64,000 nucleotides of DNA from NCBI GenBank assembly GCA_030425645.1, contig JAUHZK010000002.1, positions 124,001 to 188,000 of the forward strand, in the 5' to 3' direction. Every line of letters starts with the position of its first letter. The first letter of the stretch is position 1. A model generated the notes under the pieces. The model was given only the letters and a program-made list of their open reading frames with translations. It made no database searches and was not told where the DNA came from. Shown here in pieces: positions 1 through 1,754 of the stretch. The position numbers were made by a program, and so were the translations under genes. Source of the stretch: Gammaproteobacteria bacterium (GTDB taxonomy: Bacteria; Pseudomonadota; Gammaproteobacteria; JAPPPA01).

Positions 1-1754
1 TGACGGGTTTCTTCCGCCTTAGCGGCCTTCGCGGCAGGAGTATGGGTTGCCGCTTGATGGCTATCGCCCATAATCTGCAACTCAACCTGCAACGCCGGTA
101 GCTGCTGCTGCACAATTTCCACCAAACGCTGTCGTACACCATCCGGGCATACGGTGGCCATTTCTTGGCTGACACCCAGCACCAGTTGATTTTCTGTTTG
201 TTGGAGAATGGCGGTATTTTCAGCCAGCGCTACCAACATGCCTTTAAGCGGCAAACCGGCCGCAAACACTGCCCAGTCAATCGCAGCGGAATGCATTTCT
301 GATGCCGCGGACGGCTCAGCCACATACGACCCCTCTTGCATTGGCGCTTGTTCAGCTGGCTTTTCGATTGCTTTAGCAGGCGTTTCAAGCTCTGGCGCCG
401 AGCTCGCAGCGGGCTCTACCTTAGGCGTCGCTGAAGCTTTTGCTGGCGCCGCGGGATTCGCCTCTACGGTCGTCTTTGCGGCTAGTTCTTCTGCTAACGA
501 CTCATCATTTACTGTTTCTGATTCGGTAGCGGCCGCCGTAGCAACAGCTGGCGTTGCCGGATTTGCGTTACCTGGGCTCGCGTTAACTGGGCTGGCGTTG
601 CCTGCAGCTATACTCGCGGGGCTAGTTTGCGGTGTTTTTTTTTCTGCCGGCGCTGGCGCGCTTGCCGTCTGCGCTGGTTGAAATGCCAACATGCGCAACA
701 TAACCATTTCAAAGCCGGCCCGAGGCTCTGGTGCCAAATCCATATCACGTAGGCCGGCCACGGCGATCTGGTAATACAACTGAATATCCGCAGCCGACAG
801 TTGTGCAGCAAATTGTTTAACTGCTTCTAGCGCCGGGGTATCTTCCGGCAGCGCTTGTGGCGCTTGCTGACACACTGCGGCGCGTTGGCATAGCGAAGCC
901 AATTCCGACAGGCTAGCTTTCCAGTCGAAGCCAAAGCTCTGCAAATTTTCGATTTGTGCGAACGTGGCTGGCGCGTCGCCACTAATAATGGTCGATAACA
1001 ATTCCACGACCCGAGACTCGTCTACGGTGCCCAACATGGCACGTGTTTCCGCTTCAGCCAACTTGCCCGCACCAAAATTCAGAGCTTGATCCAACAGGCT
1101 TAATGAATCTCGTACCGAGCCGTCTGCTGCGCGTGCAATTAGACTCAATGCCGGTGACTCATAACTCACACCGTCTGCGTCTAATACCGCGGCCAAATGC
1201 GCCTTGATCTCGGAGGCGCTTAAACGGCGTAAATTAAACTGCAAGCAGCGCGACAGCACCGTCACCGGGATTTTTTGCGGATCAGTCGTCGCCAATAGAA
1301 ACTTAACGTGCTCAGGCGGCTCCTCAAGCGTTTTTAACAGCGCATTAAAGGCACTGTTTGAGAGCATGTGGACCTCATCGATTAGATACACCTTGTGGCG
1401 GCCACGTGTCGGCGCGTACTGGACGTTTTCAATCAACTCACGGATATCGTCAACACCTGTACGAGAAGCGGCGTCGATTTCGATTAGATCAACAAAGCGG
1501 CCGGCATCAATGTCGACGCAATGCGCGCATTCACCACAAGGATTAGCACTAACCCCTTTCTCGCAATTTAAGGCTTTAGAGAAAATACGTGCAATGGTGG
1601 TTTTGCCAACACCGCGGGTACCGGTGAATAAAAACGCATGGTGCACACGGTTAGCATCCAGGCCGTTAGCAAGCGCTTGTAACACATGCGACTGGCCAAC
1701 TACTTCAGAAAAATTACGCGGACGCGTTTTGCGTGCAAAAACCTGATAAGACAT
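1..1754 (-). CDS. dnaX: DNA polymerase III subunits tau/gamma (clamp loader), 3' end outside window
   Basis: Reads from ATG at 1754 leftwards through the window edge; 584 codons are present and the C-terminal part of tau is missing. The N-terminus MSYQVFARK, the Walker A motif GTRGVGKTT (about residues 45-53), four zinc-type cysteines just after it, the DEVHML Walker B region and the SRC sensor motif are those of the AAA+ clamp-loader ATPase that loads the beta sliding clamp. Domain III ends near residue 368 (LRMLAFQP). It is followed by a long Ala/Pro/Glu-rich linker typical of tau domain IV. A run of nine A in the message at codons 371-374 is a likely recoding site (separate entry). The 4.5S RNA gene lies upstream on the same strand. 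The family assignment is certain; only the end of the gene cannot be seen. Confidence 0.97.
   Translation of the reverse strand, partial: MSYQVFARKTRPRNFSEVVGQSHVLQALANGLDANRVHHAFLFTGTRGVGKTTIARIFSKALNCEKGVSANPCGECAHCVDIDAGRFVDLIEIDAASRTGVDDIRELIENVQYAPTRGRHKVYLIDEVHMLSNSAFNALLKTLEEPPEHVKFLLATTDPQKIPVTVLSRCLQFNLRRLSASEIKAHLAAVLDADGVSYESPALSLIARAADGSVRDSLSLLDQALNFGAGKLAEAETRAMLGTVDESRVVELLSTIISGDAPATFAQIENLQSFGFDWKASLSELASLCQRAAVCQQAPQALPEDTPALEAVKQFAAQLSAADIQLYYQIAVAGLRDMDLAPEPRAGFEMVMLRMLAFQPAQTASAPAPAEKKTPQTSPASIAAGNASPVNASPGNANPATPAVATAAATESETVNDESLAEELAAKTTVEANPAAPAKASATPKVEPAASSAPELETPAKAIEKPAEQAPMQEGSYVAEPSAASEMHSAAIDWAVFAAGLPLKGMLVALAENTAILQQTENQLVLGVSQEMATVCPDGVRQRLVEIVQQQLPALQVELQIMGDSHQAATHTPAAKAAKAEETR
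635..643 (-). promoter_or_regulatory. Nine-A slippery run in dnaX (predicted gamma-subunit frameshift or slippage site)
   Basis: On the coding strand the zero-frame codons are GAA AAA AAA ACA, which contains the heptamer A AAA AAA in the frame required for -1 slippage. It falls at residues 371-373, immediately after clamp-loader domain III. A -1 shift, or insertion of one A by RNA polymerase, adds Asn-Thr-Ala-Asn and meets TAG at 622-624, giving a 377-residue product. A +1 shift (one A lost) ends at TAG 608-610. In E. coli and Thermus, gamma is made from dnaX by ribosomal or transcriptional slippage on A-runs. No upstream Shine-Dalgarno-like stimulator or strong downstream stem was recognised, so which mechanism applies is open. 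Confidence 0.7.

Follow-up and report, generated by a model that had tools for sequence, protein, structure and literature searches.

The dnaX gene at the start of the window (the whole 64,000-nucleotide stretch of Gammaproteobacteria bacterium DNA analysed here) carries a run of nine adenines (A9) in the linker that follows clamp-loader domain III, and this run is probably a selected site of transcriptional slippage, at which a short gamma protein consisting of domains I–III would be made. The gene starts with an ATG at position 1754 and its 3′ end lies beyond the first base of the window, so that the final ~35 codons of the 619-amino acid open reading frame (L002:1897-3754:-) are outside it. 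The features of the gene, all on the minus strand, are as follows.

1..1754, minus strand: dnaX (tau/gamma of DNA polymerase III), 619 codons, from the open frame and Pfam matches PF13177, PF22608, PF12169, and PF12170
672..1055, minus strand: clamp-loader domain III, residues 234–361 (PF12169, E 2.9e-23)
279..671, minus strand: linker between domains III and V, Ala/Pro-rich and low-complexity, residues 362–492 (Pfam and sequence)
635..643, minus strand: candidate A9 slippage run, phase xAA AAA AAA Axx, codons 371–374 (sequence; conserved in congener L004)
622..624, minus strand: TAG that ends the frame entered through one extra A or a -1 shift (NTAN-stop); 377-amino acid product
608..610, minus strand: TAG that ends the frame entered through one lost A or a +1 shift (HRKLAPRV-stop); 381-amino acid product
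1..278, minus strand: tau domain V (alpha-binding), residues 493–614, cut by the window edge (PF12170, E 3.9e-10)

In the proposed mechanism, RNA polymerase would stutter on A9 and produce a mixed population of messages. Those with 9 + 3n adenines would encode full tau with domain V, and all other run lengths would lead to a stop 4 or 8 codons further on and to a gamma of ~377–381 residues. Such a gamma, comprised of domains I–III, would load clamps and would be unable to bind the polymerase core. We infer the occurrence of slippage, its rate, and the function of gamma alike.

The initial annotation had described a nine-A run in dnaX with an in-frame A AAA AAA, had placed it just behind clamp-loader domain III, and had predicted termination after four codons, at 377 residues, following an extra A or a -1 shift, and within nine codons following a lost A; each of these points agrees with the gene as read here. 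The plus strand T9 at 635–643, which is the longest A/T run in the 64-kb window, corresponds to A9 in the dnaX message, where codons 371–374 are GAA AAA AAA ACA and the A_AAA_AAA heptamer is in frame. The run is located 12 codons past the end of domain III (residue 361, PF12169), with the wrong-frame stops 4 codons (-1) and 8 codons (+1) beyond it. Domain V is missing from the predicted short product. The expectation that gamma would lack domain IV was also right, but Pfam finds no match to this DnaB-binding domain even in the full-length tau of the window gene, although domain V is matched. The E. coli gamma terminates at residue 431, a short way into domain IV; DnaB and alpha are bound by domains IV and V (PMC11470591). 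In this genus, whose tau gives no domain IV match in the dnaX linker, the connection to the helicase may differ from that of E. coli.

Near stops by themselves are weak evidence for selection. Within dnaX, a -1 stop is found within 4 codons at 35% of positions and both wrong-frame stops are equally close at 19% of linker positions (within-gene test, p = 0.19, not significant). Were chance responsible, the run would be a functionless AAA-coded Lys-Lys pair in a disordered linker. Lys is encoded mostly by AAA here (59%), near stops are frequent in the -1 frame, and a naive estimate predicts 0.83 A/T runs of at least nine in 60 kb of coding sequence, close to the one seen. Because the gene alone gives no clear signal, the case for more than chance rests on comparison.

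Searches of the genus, family, and order yielded one other genome, so that the comparison with a congener has n = 1. The initial annotation had called for a check on whether synonymous changes break the run in relatives, and in this sole congener the nine A are intact and the wrong-frame stops are nearer still. At the corresponding position its dnaX (L004) has the codons CAA AAA AAA ACT, with exactly nine A and the phase unchanged; the -1 frame is closed after 1 codon and the +1 frame after 2. The two Lys codons of the run are identical in both species, and the flanking codons differ on both sides (GAA to CAA and ACA to ACT). The wrong-frame stops of the two species differ in place and letters and close the same frames. 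Between the two genes, third bases are conserved at 41–44% of identical residues, and identity is 35% in the linker, against 82% over the portion of domains I–III that was compared. Retention of exactly nine A despite this third-base turnover and linker divergence favours slippage, and with third positions near saturation it argues against chance. The in-frame run length is equal in both congeners, and phase variation through replication slippage was rejected for that reason.

The 2.75-Mb genome contains about 409, 72, and 14 A/T runs of at least 7, 8, and 9 nucleotides, respectively. About three of the 14 distinct runs of at least 9 are coding, namely the dnaX A9, a T9 in recF, and an A10 in an ABC-transporter gene, and the remainder are mostly intergenic or at terminators. 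Synonymous resampling, scaled up to the genome from the window genes, gives an expectation of about 34 such coding runs, a depletion of approximately tenfold. It follows that runs of this length have been purged from genes, with dnaX as an exception; such purging was seen in many bacteria by Baranov et al. (PMC1088944). The purging of these runs elsewhere in the genome favours slippage at dnaX and counts against a chance origin of the run; replication slippage could also be the cause of the depletion. The recF T9 is close to the start of its coding sequence (L121:1501-1509; G000:C2:53502-53510). The A10 is found ~30 codons into an ABC-transporter/exporter-like gene (L135:1501-1510; G000:C16:154112-154121) and is either a possible slippage site or a sign of a misplaced start codon.

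A survey of gammaproteobacterial dnaX comprised 191 and later 210 genes (197 once near copies were removed), with the end of domain III set by alignment column and later by a regular expression (17 loci dropped). The sole short dnaX open reading frame met in the survey, whose open reading frame rule misses any dnaX with tau split in two, had no A run. The linkers of the 197 genes contain 33 A6, 14 A7, 6 A8, 14 A9, and 3 A10 runs, compared with 36 A6, 5 A7, 1 A8, and no A9 in domains I–III, across three times the sequence. For A9 in the linker, the 14 observed exceed both the 4.3 expected from synonymous resampling (maximum 10 in 200 draws) and the 0.7 expected under codon-order shuffling. A replicate set of 25 genes, too small to assess a spike at nine alone, yielded one A9 and two A10. 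On the dnaX tree, where E. coli K-12 was scored "none" as its locus was cut (its A6G site is visible otherwise), A9 requires 11 changes, of which at least 8 are forced by supported branches. This class-wide excess and recurrence favour slippage at the window site, and together with the conserved run and the depletion in coding sequence they make a chance Lys-Lys pair very improbable. In a separate observation, pairs of related genomes each conserve A9 or A10 in the dnaX linkers L186, L187, L188, L202, L096, and L251.

The survey also bears on the position of the site. Seven of the 18 A9+ sites are within 15 codons of domain III, where 2.2 are expected at random (p = 0.002), which makes a gamma that ends right behind domain III a repeated choice. 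The early position of the window site, pointed out by the initial annotation relative to E. coli (12 and 68 codons after domain III, respectively), is real but not odd.

Sites of two designs are present in these genes. A6G sites, found in 22 of about 200, have a strong upstream Shine-Dalgarno in 91% of cases (within-gene Fisher p = 3e-10; median duplex -7.95 kcal/mol), a downstream hairpin with a median z of -1.7, and a -1 stop at a median of 2 codons, the +1 frame being left open (median 24.5). A9+ sites (n = 18) have a strong Shine-Dalgarno in 17% of cases (Fisher p = 0.34), a hairpin z of -0.44, and both frames closed at medians of 4 and 3.5 codons. Differences between the two groups are significant for the Shine-Dalgarno (p = 2.5e-7), the +1 stop (p = 5.7e-5), and the z of the hairpin (p = 0.003). 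The A+T content of A9 genes may be higher, and a high A+T content shortens frames; the within-gene test of double closure takes this into account and remains significant (Fisher p = 0.0009), although a few of the sites come from related genomes. At the window site, no upstream Shine-Dalgarno (best duplex -1.7 kcal/mol) and no stable downstream hairpin (z of 0.12 over 50 nt and -0.66 over 60 nt) was found, and by every feature the window dnaX belongs to the A9+ class. A search of Rfam (threshold E 5) revealed no frameshift element at the A9 site, the only nearby matches being a small SRP RNA gene and a tRNA gene directly upstream of dnaX on the minus strand (1845-1941 and 2143-2229). The survey of these sequences shows selection for A9 in the linker and distinguishes between the two routes that the initial annotation had left open, as the window site has no stimulators of the ribosomal route and shares the closure of both frames with the slippage design.

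Programmed -1 ribosomal frameshifting on A_AAA_AAA, acting on a uniform mRNA, would also give the 377-residue gamma. In its favour, A_AAA_AAA lies in the required frame with a -1 stop 4 codons on, and A6G sites are frequent in Gammaproteobacteria. This explanation is nevertheless unlikely, as the Shine-Dalgarno duplex is weak (-1.7 against the A6G median of -7.95 kcal/mol), a stable hairpin is absent, and the heptamer ends in A rather than G, A_AAA_AAA being weaker than A_AAA_AAG in E. coli (PMC5009743). It also leaves unexplained why the +1 frame is closed and why there are nine A rather than seven. Alternatively, gamma could derive from slippage by RNA polymerase together with an unassisted shift by the ribosome. 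A ribosomal heptamer is inherent in any A9, and Thermus dnaX has been described with both signatures (PMC4320859), but no selected ribosomal stimulator is present at the window site and such a combination appears quite doubtful. Closure of both frames at A9+ sites, with neither Shine-Dalgarno nor hairpin, instead favours slippage by RNA polymerase.

Slippage of this kind is known from the dnaX of Thermus thermophilus (Larsen 2000), which, as described in later papers, has A9, stops in both frames, and two forms of gamma (PMC4320859), with slippage accounting for ~50% of product (PMC1088944); this precedent further favours slippage at the window site. The two genes have in common a tau encoded in a single open reading frame, A9 on the sense strand, and two predicted gamma lengths, with the wrong-frame stops at 2 and 16 codons in Thermus and at 4 and 8 in the window gene. 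As in the Thermus type, the window dnaX has at least nine sense-strand A after domain III, stops in both frames, and no ribosomal stimulators; it differs in its host, a gammaproteobacterium, in the location of the site directly behind domain III, and in that its slippage is predicted from sequence. In two-ORF dnaX genes with 10 A, poly-A is thought to act by transcriptional realignment (Antonov 2013, PMC3711429). There tau is the slippage product, whereas in the window dnaX tau is the templated product and gamma is predicted to arise by slippage.

The comparison with E. coli dnaX is mixed. The gene is the same, the predicted outcome is tau plus a truncated gamma, the heptamer is in frame, and a -1 stop (TAG, 4 codons) follows right after the site. 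Unlike E. coli dnaX, with its A_AAA_AAG, Shine-Dalgarno ~10 nt upstream, and stem-loop, the window gene has A9, lacks all three of these elements, and closes both frames. Counting against slippage are the absence of the run from Lysobacterales, the nearest outside relatives; the 60 nt downstream of the run in the congener, which fold somewhat better than shuffles (z of -2.0); and the preference of E. coli RNA polymerase for T runs, its slippage being lower on A runs (PMC6260861).

The slippage mechanism is already known, and the window dnaX site is new. According to one review, the production of gamma via a frameshift is confined to enterobacteria (PMC4456610), and according to another the dnaX frameshift signature is absent from most bacteria (PMC3290774); Antonov et al. 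found the signature in Neisseria and Vibrio also (PMC3711429). A literature search, to which most subscription papers were out of reach, found no report of the two dnaX designs alternating across the class. On balance, it appears that gammaproteobacterial dnaX has repeatedly gained, lost, or swapped two recoding designs, a ribosomal one (A6G with Shine-Dalgarno and hairpin) and one acting through RNA polymerase (A9 with both frames closed), and that gamma is a widely selected trait, attained through different mechanisms and well beyond the enterobacteria. That a single class draws repeatedly on both designs is of more interest than a single new site, and Marinobacterium, Microbulbifer, Spongiibacter, Oleiphilus, and Cycloclasticus are candidate genera for testing. 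The function of gamma is a disputed matter; the repeated and independent occurrence of A9 and A6G sites, accompanied in each case by the features that the respective mechanism requires, argues that a truncated DnaX has been selected in many lineages.
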